A stretch of DNA of 64,000 nucleotides from positions 2,363,501 through 2,427,500 of the forward strand of contig AP024683.1 of assembly GCA_025999455.1 (NCBI GenBank), given 5' to 3'. This document shows, in pieces, positions 13,550 through 17,583 of this stretch (position 1 is its first letter; each line of letters begins with the position of its first letter). Position numbers and translations under genes: made by a program. Source of the DNA: Geminicoccaceae bacterium (GTDB lineage Bacteria; Pseudomonadota; Alphaproteobacteria; Geminicoccales; Geminicoccaceae). The notes under the pieces were generated by a model. The model was not told the origin of the DNA. It ran no database searches and was given only the letters and a program-made list of their open reading frames with translations.

Positions 13550-13981
13550 TCATCCCGCCAAGAGCTCGCTCACCCGGCGCCGTTCGGCCACGATCTCGGC
13601 GAGCGTGGTGCGGTCGAGGACGGCGAGGAACGCCTCGAGCGCCTCGGCGAGGACGGCACGCAGGACGCAGCCGGGCTCGAGTCGGCAGAGCCCGCTCGAC
13701 GGGTCGAAGCACTCGACGAGCCGCAGATCGCTCTCGGTCACCCGCACGACGCGCCCGATGGCGATGGCTTGGGGCGGAGCGGCGAGCCGATAGCCGCCGG
13801 TGCGGCCCCGCACCGAGGCGAGGAAGCCGTGCCGCGCCAAGAGGTTCGTGATCTTGCGGACGTGGCCTTCGGGGATCCGGTGGACCCGGGCGATCTCGGC
13901 CACGGTCACGAGCTCGGGGTCGCGCACCGCGGCCAAGACGAGGGCGCGCAGCGCATAGTCGGAGAGTTTCGAGAGCTGCAT
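13550..13981 (-). CDS. nsrR: Rrf2-family Fe-S regulator, NsrR type (nitric oxide sensor)
   Basis: A 143-residue Rrf2 repressor. It has an N-terminal winged helix-turn-helix (VTVAEIARVHRIPEGHVRKI) and the GGYRLA wing. The cluster ligands are Cys91, Cys99 and Cys105, in VECFDPSSGLC and RLEPGC. The VECFDP phrase and the AFLAVLDRTTLAEI tail are those of NsrR rather than IscR or RirA. NsrR holds a [4Fe-4S] cluster destroyed by NO and represses NO-detoxification genes. Its position downstream of a heme-copper oxidase/NO reductase-like cluster on the same strand supports that role. The start is the ATG at 13981, where the domain begins, though the frame stays open upstream. Confidence 0.88.
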   Translation of the reverse strand: MQLSKLSDYALRALVLAAVRDPELVTVAEIARVHRIPEGHVRKITNLLARHGFLASVRGRTGGYRLAAPPQAIAIGRVVRVTESDLRLVECFDPSSGLCRLEPGCVLRAVLAEALEAFLAVLDRTTLAEIVAERRRVSELLAG

Positions 13982-14287
13982 CGTGCCTCGAGTCGCGGGT
14001 GACGCACCTTTCGCCCCTCCCCCGAGCGGCGACCGGCCGGAACTTAGCCGGACCGCGCCGGTCGCGGCAGGTCCGCGGCCGCGCGTCGCGGGAACGTACC
14101 GGCTCACGGGCCGCGGCCGGGTCCCGAGTTTCCTTCGGACCGATCGTGGCGGCACGGCCGCGTACGAGCAGCCGGAAGATGGGATCATGCGGCTGCCCGA
14201 CGGAAACGATCGCGAGGGTCCCGCCGCCCATCCGAGCCCCCGCGAAGGCTGCGATCGTGAAGCGGAGTGGGCCGTCGAGACTCGACA
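13982..14287. other. 306-bp gap between the membrane-protein gene and nsrR
   Basis: No gene is confidently assigned here. It probably holds the nsrR promoter and leader, but I see no convincing -35/-10 pair. An ATG at 14288 overlaps the upstream stop and opens a frame with plausible first codons that then runs on through nsrR without a stop. Confidence 0.4.
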
Positions 14288-14887
14288 TCAGCTGCCGCTC
14301 TGCACGGCCCGTGGACCGATCGACGCCGAGGTCGCTCCGAGCGCAGGCGGCCGGACGCAGAGCCTTCCCAGCCACAGCAACGAGGCCAGGGCGGCGAGCA
14401 GAAGGAGCGCGGTGCCGAGTTCGTCCTGCTCGCTGCGCAGATAGCGCAAGCAGAGCCGCTCCGGCAGTGCGGTGTAGAGCCAGCCCATCGCCGCTGCCAT
14501 GGCCAGCGTCTGGGCGGCGAGCAACTGGCGGGCGAGCCAGGGAACCCGCGGGAGGCTGCGGGCCAGCGCCGCCCCGGCGATCGGCAGCGACGCCAACTTG
14601 GCGGCTTCGAAGCGGAGGTCGGCGAGGCTCGCGTCGATCGACCGCGGCAGCATCCAATAGGCCGAAATCGCAGCCGCCAGCGCGAGGCCCGTGGCACCGC
14701 CGCGGTTCCACCGGGTGGGCCCGCAGGGACGGCCGGCCAGGAGCGCCCCGGCGGCGAGCAGGAGCGGGAACTGGACGAGGAGGTGGGTGACGAGCCGCGC
14801 CTCGAGCGTCTCCCGGACGAGCCAGGCGGCGAGGAACGCGACCGATCCGGTCAGGACCCCCGGCCAGTTGTCGACCGGGCGGCTCAC
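14288..14887 (-). CDS. Membrane protein of the heme-copper reductase cluster
   Basis: A 199-residue protein with about five to six hydrophobic segments. It has an early ARLVTHLLVQFPLLLAAGALL segment, with His in THLLVQFP, and the phrase SAYWMLPRSIDASL in the middle. These resemble small membrane proteins found with SCO and heme-copper subunits, loosely like CtaG_caa3. A role in copper delivery or assembly is inference. The ATG overlaps the SCO stop (ATGA), so it is in the same operon. Confidence 0.75.
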   Translation of the reverse strand: MSRPVDNWPGVLTGSVAFLAAWLVRETLEARLVTHLLVQFPLLLAAGALLAGRPCGPTRWNRGGATGLALAAAISAYWMLPRSIDASLADLRFEAAKLASLPIAGAALARSLPRVPWLARQLLAAQTLAMAAAMGWLYTALPERLCLRYLRSEQDELGTALLLLAALASLLWLGRLCVRPPALGATSASIGPRAVQSGS

Positions 14888-15480
14888 CGGCGGAGCTCCG
14901 CCGAGGCCCGGTCGATCTCGTCGGGGTCGAGGATCGCGGCGACGCGGCCTCGCGCGTCGATCAGATGCAGCGCCGCGTTGTGGACGTATCCACCCTCACC
15001 GTCCGGGATCACGACGACGCCCATCGCCCGAAGCAACGTGCGCAGCGCGGCCTCGTCTTCCGGCAGAGCGACCCGCCAGCGGCGCGGATCGGCCCCGTGC
15101 GCCGCCGCGTAGGCCGAGAGTGCCGTCGCATCGTCGCGCGCCGGGTCGAAGCTCACGGAGAGGAGCTGGAGCGCGGGTGCAGCACCCGCCTCTTCGAGGG
15201 CGTCTTGGATCGCCGCGAAGCTCCGGCCGAGTGCCACGCAAAGGGTCGGGCAGCTCGTGTAGACGAACTCGACGAGCATCGGCCGCCCGCCGATCGGGAG
15301 CTCGAAGCGCTCTCCCCGAGCGTCGCGGAGCGTGACCGCCGGCACGGGTACCGGAGCCCGCTGCACGGCGAGCCGCCGGGCGGTTTCGCTCGTGAAGGCG
15401 CGGAAGCCGTCGGTCGCGACGAAAATCGCCCCCACGCCGGCGAGGAGGACCGCTGCCGTGGCGATCGCCGTCCGCACCAC
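14884..15480 (-). CDS. SCO1/SenC-type copper chaperone
   Basis: A 198-residue thioredoxin-fold protein anchored by an N-terminal membrane helix (TAIATAAVLLAGVGAIFVA). The copper-binding motif is intact: FVYTSCPTLC (CxxxC near residues 75-80), with the distal His in GGYVHNAALHLI near 165-172. SCO proteins load copper into the CuA centre of subunit II, which fits the intact CuA site in the same operon. The start is GTG at 15480, with a second in-frame GTG one codon later. It begins 4 bp after the subunit I stop. Confidence 0.9.
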   Translation of the reverse strand: MVRTAIATAAVLLAGVGAIFVATDGFRAFTSETARRLAVQRAPVPVPAVTLRDARGERFELPIGGRPMLVEFVYTSCPTLCVALGRSFAAIQDALEEAGAAPALQLLSVSFDPARDDATALSAYAAAHGADPRRWRVALPEDEAALRTLLRAMGVVVIPDGEGGYVHNAALHLIDARGRVAAILDPDEIDRASAELRR

Positions 15481-15484
15481 GGTC

Positions 15485-16948
15485 TCACCCCGCCTCGCGG
15501 GTCGCGCCCGCGGCCGTGAGCAATCCCGGCAGCGCCCGCAGGAAGAAGCCGGCGGCGCCGACGAGGACGAGGATCGCGAAGAACACGGCCGGCAGGTCGT
15601 GGACGATCCAAGAGGGCTCGTGGACCGCCCAGCGGCGTGGCACGCTCGCCGCGCCCGCTACGAGAAAGCCCAAGGTGAGCCCGGCGCCGCCGACGACATA
15701 GCTGCCGAGGAGGAGTCGATCGCCGCCCGAGAGCCCGGCCACGTTGCGGCCATGGGCGAGCCAGGAAAGTGTGCCCCAGACCATCGCCACCTGGCCCAGG
15801 ATCAAATACATGTGGAAATGGCCGGGCACCCAGAGCGTGTTGTGCATCACCTTGTTGACGGCGACGATGCCGTCGATCCAGGCCGGCATCACACCCGCCG
15901 TCCACCCCGCCACGCCGAGCACGAGGAGCGAGGCCGAAAGATCGAGCCGGGCACCGGAACGGTAGAGGTACGACAAAAGGCCGAGGGTCGTGACCGCGAC
16001 GAGCGGCACGGCACTGCCGTAGGAGAGGACTTGGCCGGCCACGAGCGCCCAGGCCGGCATCACGGTGTCCTGGAGGAGGTGGTGGGGATAGACCGCCATG
16101 ACGAAGAGCAGCACGACGCTCCAGGCACCGGCGAAAACCCGGCTCGTCTTCCACCGCCGACCGGTATAGTCGGGAACGATCTCGTAGACCGCGATCACGG
16201 CCATGTAGATGGTGGCATTGATGAAGACGTGGCCGAAAAAGTAGATCATGTTCTTGGCCACGAGCGGATCGAGACCCACGCCGGCCAGGAGGATCTCGAG
16301 GATCGAGATCAGGATGACCGCCGCGCCGAAGACGAGCCCCAGCAGATCGAAGATCGTCACGGCCGCGGCGGCGACCACGGTCGGTGGCGGGACGGGGTCC
16401 TGCCGGCCGCGGAACAGGAGCGGCCAGGCGAGCGCCCGGCCGAGGCCACCCCAAGCGGCGCGCAGGGCTCGGGCGCATTCGAGGTGGACGAGCAGGAAGC
16501 CCACGCCCACGAGCGCCAGGCCCGCCAGGTAGAGCACCGCCACGTTCGGCGACCAGACCCCGCCCGACACCGCCGGCAGCGGATAGAGGAAGGTCCAGGC
16601 GGCGGCGGACCCGCCGAGGAAGATCGCGCCCAGGATCAGCACGACGCCCGACAGGAACAGTCCGAGGAACGCCCAGAAAGCCCGCTCGTCGAGCGTCACG
16701 TGGCGGCCGAGGAAGTGCCAGAGAATGCCGATCCCGGTGAGCCCGGCGGTGCCGACCATGCCGATCCCGTGCGCCGTCATGATCTCGTAGAAGAGGCGTG
16801 GGTCGAGCGGCAGGAGATCCGCCTGGCTCGCCTTCATGAGGAGGCCCAAGAGCATCATCACGAGGAAGACGAGACCACCCAGAACGAGCGCGAGCCGCGC
16901 CGGCTCGAAGCCGGCAACCGTACGGTCGGCCATCGTCGTCGAAGCCAT
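15485..16948 (-). CDS. Heme-copper oxidoreductase subunit I lacking the active-site Tyr (putative NO reductase)
   Basis: A 487-residue polytopic protein with about 12-13 membrane helices. All six histidine metal ligands are present: His60 (TAHGIGMV), His240 (FFGHVFIN), His289-His290 (YPHHLLQD), and His377 and His379 (VPGHFHM). The tyrosine that in oxidases crosslinks to the helix VI His sits four residues after it; here that position is Asn244. Loss of this Tyr is typical of NO-reducing members of the superfamily. Together with nsrR nearby this suggests NO reduction rather than oxygen reduction. The ATG at 16948 has GGGAGG just upstream and follows the CuA subunit by 13 bp. Confidence 0.85.
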   Translation of the reverse strand: MASTTMADRTVAGFEPARLALVLGGLVFLVMMLLGLLMKASQADLLPLDPRLFYEIMTAHGIGMVGTAGLTGIGILWHFLGRHVTLDERAFWAFLGLFLSGVVLILGAIFLGGSAAAWTFLYPLPAVSGGVWSPNVAVLYLAGLALVGVGFLLVHLECARALRAAWGGLGRALAWPLLFRGRQDPVPPPTVVAAAAVTIFDLLGLVFGAAVILISILEILLAGVGLDPLVAKNMIYFFGHVFINATIYMAVIAVYEIVPDYTGRRWKTSRVFAGAWSVVLLFVMAVYPHHLLQDTVMPAWALVAGQVLSYGSAVPLVAVTTLGLLSYLYRSGARLDLSASLLVLGVAGWTAGVMPAWIDGIVAVNKVMHNTLWVPGHFHMYLILGQVAMVWGTLSWLAHGRNVAGLSGGDRLLLGSYVVGGAGLTLGFLVAGAASVPRRWAVHEPSWIVHDLPAVFFAILVLVGAAGFFLRALPGLLTAAGATREAG

Positions 16949-16961
16949 CCGGACCTCCCTC

Positions 16962-17480
16962 TCAGCTGGTTCCCCGGACCTCGAATTCGGCCATCATCCC
17001 GTGATGGGCGAGACCGCAATATTCGAGGCAGAGAACACGGTAGCGACCGGGTTCGGTGAACGTCCAAGCGACCTTGTTGACCCAGCCGGGCATCGCCTGG
17101 GTCTGGAAGAGGAGCCGTCCGCCCGGATCGAACACCCCGAAGCCGTGGTTCACGTCGGTGCTCGTCGCGTGGAAGACGACCGGCACGCCGATCGGCAGCT
17201 CCACCCGATCGAGCTCCCACGCCCACATCGACGCGCGCACGTGGACTGGGACGACCCCGGGCCCGGCCGGGACGGCGTGCGGCCAGGGCAGGAGCGTCGC
17301 AACCGCGATCGCCGCGCCGGCGATCACCGCACCCCAAAGGATCCGCCCGCGGAGCGCGTCGACCGAGCCGGTGGGACCGCCACCGCCGGCCGCGGGCTCG
17401 AGGCGGCGCAGCACCGCGAGGAACGCCACGGCGACCGCGGCGATCGCCGCGAGCGAGAGAACCAGGACGATCTCCTGCAT
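16962..17480 (-). CDS. CuA-containing subunit II
   Basis: A 172-residue protein with two membrane helices (residues about 3-24 and 47-65) and a periplasmic cupredoxin domain. The CuA ligands are complete: His112 (DVNHGFGV), Cys151, Cys155, His159 and Met162 in CLEYCGLAHHGMM. It should accept electrons from cytochrome c and pass them to subunit I. I chose the ATG at 17480 because GGGGAGG lies 7 bp upstream; an ATG at 17501 lacks such a site and sits in the promoter-like region. It is first in the subunit II-subunit I-SCO-membrane protein operon. Confidence 0.9.
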   Translation of the reverse strand: MQEIVLVLSLAAIAAVAVAFLAVLRRLEPAAGGGGPTGSVDALRGRILWGAVIAGAAIAVATLLPWPHAVPAGPGVVPVHVRASMWAWELDRVELPIGVPVVFHATSTDVNHGFGVFDPGGRLLFQTQAMPGWVNKVAWTFTEPGRYRVLCLEYCGLAHHGMMAEFEVRGTS

Positions 17481-17493
17481 CTCCGCCTCCCCG

Positions 17494-17520
17494 TTTAACA
17501 TCGATGCTTTATCGCTCTTT
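17494..17520 (-). promoter_or_regulatory. AT-rich promoter/operator ahead of the CuA operon
   Basis: This short AT-rich island in a GC-rich genome contains an imperfect palindrome, AACATCGATGCTT (17497-17509), centred on the perfect CATCGATG. It lies about 20 bp upstream of the subunit II start. It could be the promoter and an NsrR-type operator; it does not match a consensus I can state with confidence. Confidence 0.4.
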
Positions 17521-17529
17521 TAGCGCCGC

Positions 17530-17559
17530 AAAAAGGCCGGGTGCAAGGGGCACCCGGCC
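17530..17559 (-). terminator. Rho-independent terminator after dctM
   Basis: Read on the minus strand, a perfect 10-bp stem GGCCGGGTGC...GCACCCGGCC with a 5-base loop is followed directly by TTTTT. It lies 25 bp after the dctM stop, so it ends the TRAP operon and insulates it from the CuA operon downstream. Confidence 0.85.
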
Positions 17560-17583
17560 GGTTCCGCGTCCCGCCTCCGCCTC

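Follow-up and report, generated by a model that had tools for sequence, protein, structure and literature searches.

A window of 64,000 nucleotides from a Geminicoccaceae bacterium (contig AP024683.1, positions 2,363,501 to 2,427,500; positions below count from the first letter of the window) contains on its minus strand a gene cluster built around a heme-copper enzyme, which is assigned here to the sNOR family and read as a candidate nitric oxide (NO) reductase. The cluster is transcribed in the order subunit II, subunit I, SCO, orf1 and Rrf2. The norS-type subunit II (16962..17501, 179 amino acids) combines two N-terminal transmembrane (TM) helices with a periplasmic CuA cupredoxin domain, and is followed by the norY-type subunit I (15485..16948, 487 amino acids; PF00115, 1.3e-38), an SCO1/SenC copper chaperone with a CPTLC motif (14884..15480; PF02630, 9.7e-14), the conserved membrane protein orf1 (14288..14887) and an Rrf2-family repressor (13550..13981). 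The first four genes are near-contiguous or overlapping, while the Rrf2 gene starts 306 bases past the end of orf1. The Pfam matches in the cluster are COX1, COX2, SCO1-SenC and Rrf2, with none for the small membrane protein. The open reading frame of subunit II probably starts seven codons early at 17501, and its likely start is Met8 (giving 16962-17480), because L018 and L019, the two closest named relatives, have their start at this Met, preceded by a purine-rich GGGGAGGC site. The Rrf2 reading frame spans 13550-14188, but the Rrf2 domain begins only at about Met70, which gives the shorter gene listed above. The subunit I, CuA-bearing subunit II, SCO protein and neighbouring three-cysteine regulator described in the original prediction, which was made from the sequence of this stretch, are all confirmed; orf1 is an additional gene that does not figure in that prediction.

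In the active site of subunit I, His60, His240, His289, His290, His377 and His379 are all present, and each is kept in every one of the 35 rows of the sNOR group defined below by phylogeny. Helix VI reads GHVFINATIY, so that the residue four positions after His240 is Asn244, which is aligned with Tyr237 of the Thermus ba3 oxidase. In an alignment of 58 rows (the window and 57 relatives, one of them masked at this position) asparagine occupies the site in 57 of 57 readable rows, and the presence of Asn244 in the window is therefore not due to chance. These alignments bear out the prediction of six histidine ligands accompanied by asparagine in place of the oxidase tyrosine. In cbb3 oxidases the cross-linked tyrosine comes instead from helix VII. 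A displaced tyrosine had been named as the finding that would speak against the prediction, and inspection of the sequence reveals none at the cbb3-type position, which is Val283 in subunit I and is occupied among the 58 rows by 56 valines, one threonine and one alanine. The invariant tyrosines left in the alignment are Tyr54, Tyr248, Tyr255, Tyr261 and Tyr381; a cross-link between Tyr248 and His240 is unlikely, judging from their spacing, because Tyr248 lies eight residues, or two helix turns, past His240.

An AlphaFold2 model of subunit I computed from the 58 rows has 12 long helices and a mean predicted local distance difference test score (pLDDT) of 83.2, with weakly predicted parts at residues 119-131 and 361-374. 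It matches cytochrome oxidases with Foldseek E-values down to 8e-11, and in VIA-align the Z scores range from 30.6 to 35.7 across the 50 rows shown, Thermus ba3 being at 30.6. In subunit II, residues His119, Cys158, Cys162, His166 and Met169 align with the CuA motif of the Thermus subunit II, and we take them to be the CuA ligands. The complete CuA site and the SCO protein of the original prediction are thus upheld, by the Thermus alignment on the one hand and by the PF02630 match and CPTLC motif on the other.

The original prediction left the family of the enzyme unassigned; on the basis of sequence comparison the family is sNOR (norS-norY-senC-orf1). The nearest named relatives, at 76-77%, are a Pseudomonadota bin and a Geminicoccaceae bacterium. 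A protein encoded on the megaplasmid of Ruegeria pomeroyi DSS-3, an organism which we take to be the former Silicibacter, aligns over 87% of the query with 57.7% identity, and its gene lies in the row Rrf2, norS, norY, SCO, orf, formate/nitrite transporter. An IQ-TREE phylogeny of 50 rows (49 of them different) contains a 35-row group, supported at 100/99, that unites the window with R. pomeroyi and with two genomes recognized as amo-bearing by their ammonia monooxygenase (AMO) genes; 34 of its rows are readable as asparagine at the site and one is masked. Nine tyrosine-bearing B-family rows (98/92) and four glutamine-bearing eNOR-type rows (100/100) stand apart. The host's own aa3 and cbb3 sequences and a Thermomicrobium row (L099) form long branches, and the deep order of the tree is not usable. 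A tree of heme-copper families, which had been proposed as the means of placing subunit I, thus does not put it in an oxygen-reducing clade; this tree contains no bNOR sequences and no curated gNOR or nNOR rows. An AMO match was present in 12 of 399 genomes. The eight strongest were searched for subunit I, and two of them have it, at 47% identity and within the same four-gene set; no AMO was found among the 78 genomes of the order to which genome G415 belongs. Among the eNOR-type sequences, a gene on the Thermus thermophilus plasmid pTF24b (L121, 2983-4668) has lysine at one of the histidine columns (GHFK) and is followed by an Rrf2 gene.

The assignment agrees with the published residue code for the family. 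Table A4 of PMC8756737 gives the active-site residue as N in sNOR and CuANor, Q in eNOR, D in gNOR, E in cNOR and qNOR, and Y in oxygen reductases. As holders of sNOR it has Betaproteobacteria, Silicibacter, Deinococcus and Geobacillus; the table names the genus Silicibacter only and not the R. pomeroyi protein itself. Four other assignments were considered and rejected: an oxygen reductase, from which the tree separates subunit I and which would have tyrosine and not asparagine at the position four past the histidine; eNOR, which needs glutamine there and whose four glutamine rows group separately; gNOR, which needs aspartate; and cNOR or qNOR, which need glutamate. The order norSY-senC-orf1 has been published for two species, Nitrosospira briensis and Nitrosomonas communis, and sNOR is described in ammonia oxidizers, Silicibacter and Bacillus.

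A further assignment that the residue code does not separate from sNOR is bNOR, the CuANOR type I of Bacillus azotoformans, which shares with the present enzyme the residue at the tyrosine site, a CuA subunit and SenC. The bNOR enzyme purified from that organism (qCuANOR type I) is described with 13 TM helices in subunit I, a single one in subunit II and an extra 46-amino-acid peptide (PMC3475470), whereas here there are 12 helices in subunit I and two N-terminal TM helices in subunit II, and the likely norS start is separated from the stop of the upstream gene by 103 bases, too few for a gene encoding such a peptide. Subunit I also groups with the proteins of Ruegeria and of the ammonia-oxidizing bacteria, in a tree that includes no bNOR sequence. 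Membership of bNOR is accordingly regarded as very improbable, and the sNOR assignment is retained.

The distribution of the cluster and the constancy of its gene order were surveyed in GTDB contigs, in which 418 stretches encode a relative; the best 80 of these were kept and form the basis of all locus counts given here. Matches at E <= 1e-20 occur in 7 of the order's 31 genomes, in 4 of 385 genomes sampled from the class and in 6 of 398 sampled from the phylum, where the host genome is included in each set and some genomes belong to more than one. The order subunit II, subunit I, SCO, orf of the window recurs in 74 of the 80 loci, and the remaining six (L049, L062, L071, L086, L095 and L097), some of which are on short contigs, are short of at least one gene by the distance rule. 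The flanking genes, a TRAP transporter upstream on the same strand and a downstream reading frame without a Pfam match, are taken as lying outside the cluster. A long-branched, asparagine-bearing relative, about 40% identical, is encoded on a plasmid of Thermomicrobium roseum DSM 5159 (L099, 4339-8133), where SCO and orf1 are replaced by genes for a formate/nitrite transporter and for a protein labelled 'cytochrome c oxidase assembly protein'; the same plasmid also carries an eNOR-type gene (L122).

A homologue of the small membrane protein orf1 was seen in 77 of the 80 sNOR loci and in none of 30 control stretches. The controls come from the surroundings of oxidase genes of other kinds and of amo, nir and nos-type genes, and some of them overlap. 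The orf1 alignment has ten invariant columns over 50 rows, and its model has six long helices at a mean pLDDT of 91.3. A fold search with this model gave no match at E <= 0.001, and comparison of the orf1 profile with solved chains gave one chain at E 0.41, which is no relative. Seven of 50 family members, the orf1 of the window not among them, match DUF1404 weakly (best 1.1e-4). It is possible that orf1 is a third subunit or an assembly factor.

The cluster is also associated with a regulatory gene. Of the 80 loci, 51 have an Rrf2 homologue in the flanking DNA that was fetched. In 41 of these it is divergent and upstream, mostly about 100 bases off, whereas in the window and its near relatives L006, L018 and L019 it lies downstream of the operon in the same orientation. 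In the 30 control stretches (3.4 to 19.9 kb) an Rrf2 gene was found once, beside a Thermus eNOR-type gene. In a 52-row alignment that includes the window and one gapped row, Cys91, Cys99 and Cys105 occur in 51 of 51 ungapped rows and Asp8, which is named as an NsrR cluster ligand, in 49 of 51 (the ligands of Streptomyces NsrR are taken from PMC9338935). The best solved match of the window protein is Streptomyces NsrR (7.7e-16). In the NCBIfam models, however, the protein scores 106.1 bits for NsrR, below the cut-off of 182, and slightly more for RirA, at 111.5 bits, which is also below cut-off (193). The description of this gene in the original prediction as an NsrR-type regulator with three cysteines therefore stands as to the cysteines, which are joined by Asp8, but not as to the family threshold.

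The score order raises the alternative that the Rrf2 gene encodes an iron regulator of the RirA type and that the operon answers to iron or copper and not to NO. Against this can be set the Streptomyces NsrR match, the retention of Asp8, and the layout of the putative operator in the relatives. In many of these, a palindrome such as AATGGGTATTTGAAATACCTATT lies between the repressor gene and norS, and a palindrome around the probe GTATTTNAAATAC lies upstream of norS in L029, L036, L054, L056, L058, L072 and others. When at most 2 mismatches are allowed, GTATTTNAAATAC has a match at 24 of the 42 loci whose Rrf2 gene is divergent, where shuffled sequences give a mean of 1.03 and a maximum of 3, and at 10 of the 34 remaining loci (shuffle mean 0.40, maximum 2), making 34 of 76 in total. 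This count has 42 divergent loci instead of 41 because any Rrf2 hit was counted, and omits three of the 80 loci with short upstream DNA as well as L071, which has no subunit II upstream; the shuffle control is generous since the box was chosen from the same upstream regions, and near-identical loci each entered the count on their own. In its 7-5-7 layout the box agrees with the NsrR motif given in PMC1274295 (gATGyAT-N5-ATrCATc), with some bases changed. In Nitrosococcus oceani, moreover, the gene two locus tags from senC is annotated as NsrR, and PMC3772326 tabulates an sNOR with NsrR in this organism (Noc2967 NsrR, 2969 SenC, 2970 NorY, 2971 NorS). A RirA-like regulator is consequently held to be improbable, and the repressor is treated below as NsrR-like.

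A search of the whole window with the NsrR-type consensus GATGYATTTNAAATRCATC, a pattern whose inner letters come from general background, gave 0 matches with up to 3 mismatches, and the box of the relatives is absent from the window (best 6 mismatches) and from its two closest named relatives (5 and 5). The region upstream of norS (17481..17583) does contain an imperfect 12-bp palindrome, AGCATCGATGTT, in which 2 of 12 positions are unmatched and which starts 28 bases before the likely norS start codon; 12-bp palindromes also lie upstream in the two nearest named relatives, but a palindrome of this length is too short for a claim that it is the operator. The suggestion in the original prediction that the cluster is under NO control is thus, for the window, only an inference, since the repressor scores below cut-off and no NsrR box is present.

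The genome of the host supplies the metabolic setting. It consists of one contig (99.7% complete) and encodes four subunit I genes, namely aa3, cbb3, eNOR-like and sNOR-type, of which the aa3 and cbb3 genes both exceed NCBIfam cut-offs; there is no cNOR or qNOR among the four. The eNOR-like gene (G000:C1:1324954-1326687; L113:5952-7688, minus) has glutamine at the position four past the histidine (GHSSQQ) and its subunit II carries a CuA-like motif. A NirS-type gene (cytochrome c and D1 domains, without an NCBIfam equivalog match) lies some 13 kb away, accompanied by a tetrapyrrole methylase and further D1 proteins. Several D1-domain genes are found in L112 (G000:C1:1310762-1318999), one match there (C1:1313235-1314314) having one in-frame TGA. 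No NirK was found above cut-off in this genome, and with the one NosZ profile used the matches here were confined to the CuA domains in the subunits II of the two NOR-type enzymes, although elsewhere in the genome set it matched over its whole length. An eNOR-like gene occurs in 14 of the 31 genomes of the order; 13 of these 14 also show D1 at E below 1e-100 (p = 0.0002), and in the fourteenth the D1 is incomplete.

The likeliest function of the cluster, as predicted from these data, is the reduction of NO to N2O by sNOR, because the tyrosine is lost throughout, because two residues corresponding to the ba3 K-path are hydrophobic in 35 of 35 rows, and because a repressor resembling an NO sensor lies nearby. 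The K-path residues in question are Tyr244 and Ser309 of ba3; the equivalents of ba3 Tyr248 and Thr312 are retained in all 35 rows. The table of PMC8756737 predicts 0 proton channels for sNOR. In the proposed mechanism, a periplasmic carrier, either a cytochrome c or a cupredoxin, would reduce CuA in NorS, and electrons would pass by way of the low-spin heme (His60/His379) to the binuclear site in NorY, formed by the heme whose ligand would be His377 and by CuB with ligands His240, His289 and His290. Two NO molecules would bind there and be coupled to N2O. With Asn244 in the place of the cross-linked tyrosine, the extra electron and proton with which this tyrosine provides oxidases for the splitting of O2 would be missing, while the reduction of NO would need two electrons only. 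SenC would load copper, orf1 would be an assembly helper or third subunit, and the repressor would lose its Fe-S cluster on exposure to NO and so release the operon, allowing sNOR to remove NO arising from the NirS-type nitrite reductase in the host.

The principal competitor to this mechanism holds that the enzyme belongs to the sNOR family by descent but is mainly a high-affinity oxygen reductase, with NO reduction as a side activity. The enzyme shares with oxidases the CuA site, the histidines of CuB and the SCO protein, the ba3 Tyr248 and Thr312 equivalents are kept, and in PMC6967387 the authors note that NorY is like B-type oxidases and is without the NorB glutamates, and suggest a high-affinity oxidase, the genes of Nitrosomonas europaea rising 2.7- to 10.8-fold under O2 limitation; they also cite indirect evidence for NO reduction in Nitrococcus. 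The cross-linking tyrosine is nevertheless missing in every readable row and has no substitute at the cbb3 position, hydrophobic residues stand where ba3 has Tyr244 and Ser309, NsrR-like regulators lie near 51 of the 80 clusters, and aa3 and cbb3 oxidases are already present in the host. A mainly oxygen-reducing role is thus considered rather unlikely.

Several points weigh against NO reduction under NsrR-like control and must be set beside the evidence for it. In addition to the N. europaea expression data, the sub-threshold NsrR score with its slight preference for RirA, and the want of the box in the window, the box is absent at up to 2 mismatches in 18 of the 42 loci with a divergent Rrf2 gene. 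Six of the eight amo-bearing genomes searched lack sNOR, and the co-occurrence of sNOR with the NirS-type gene in the order is not significant (6 of 7 against 11 of 24 genomes, p = 0.09). The enzymes listed as biochemically characterized in PMC11388526 are cNOR, qNOR, bNOR and eNOR only, and in a limited view of the literature no report of a purified sNOR was found. When all of this is taken together, the reading that the cluster is an sNOR operon, norS-norY-senC-orf1, with an NsrR-like repressor gene, whose product reduces NO to N2O, is given a probability of roughly 0.77, and the original prediction of a non-canonical, CuA-containing NO reductase is supported as a reading. A broader proposal is put forward as a tentative and somewhat doubtful one: that sNOR is a dedicated NO remover under widespread NsrR control, with orf1 as an obligatory third subunit, and that the genus, which would have no classical NOR, splits NO reduction between two non-canonical enzymes, respiration being served by an eNOR encoded next to nirS and protection by an sNOR that NsrR governs.

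These results matter because annotation calls such genes cytochrome c oxidase, so that NO-consuming bacteria are missed. The R. pomeroyi protein is annotated as 'cbb3-type cytochrome c oxidase subunit I', and the KEGG label for such genes is coxA, according to PMC11388526. The host genome looks like that of a nitrite-to-N2O organism without norB. The sNOR family is named in the literature and its function is argued over, and the recurrent NsrR-like neighbour and its box bear on the question of whether NO or O2 is its substrate.

Because the sNOR family was already known, the cluster represents no new kind; what is added here is the sNOR assignment, the strict asparagine, and the recurrent NsrR-like gene and box. 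The Thermus thermophilus ba3 B-family oxidase resembles subunit I in its fold, six histidine ligands and CuA, but Tyr237, Tyr244 and Ser309 are replaced in the window protein, which falls in a separate clade. The eNOR enzymes differ in having glutamine where asparagine is found here, and the host has a separate eNOR-like gene elsewhere in its genome. The qCuANOR type II of B. azotoformans (BAZO_04695-04710), which is likened to the present system by its description and not by sequence alignment, has 12 TM helices in subunit I and two in subunit II, asparagine at the site, SenC and a protein of 4-5 TM helices (PMC3475470), whereas the orf1 model of the window has six long helices. The closest correspondence is with the sNOR of the ammonia-oxidizing bacteria and R. 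pomeroyi, which shares the asparagine at the tyrosine site, the CuA subunit II, SCO, the small membrane protein, the gene order and the NsrR-like neighbour, and which lies in the same clade, the differences being that the Rrf2 gene in the window comes after the operon and is not divergent upstream of it, and that no nitrite transporter gene adjoins the cluster in the window.

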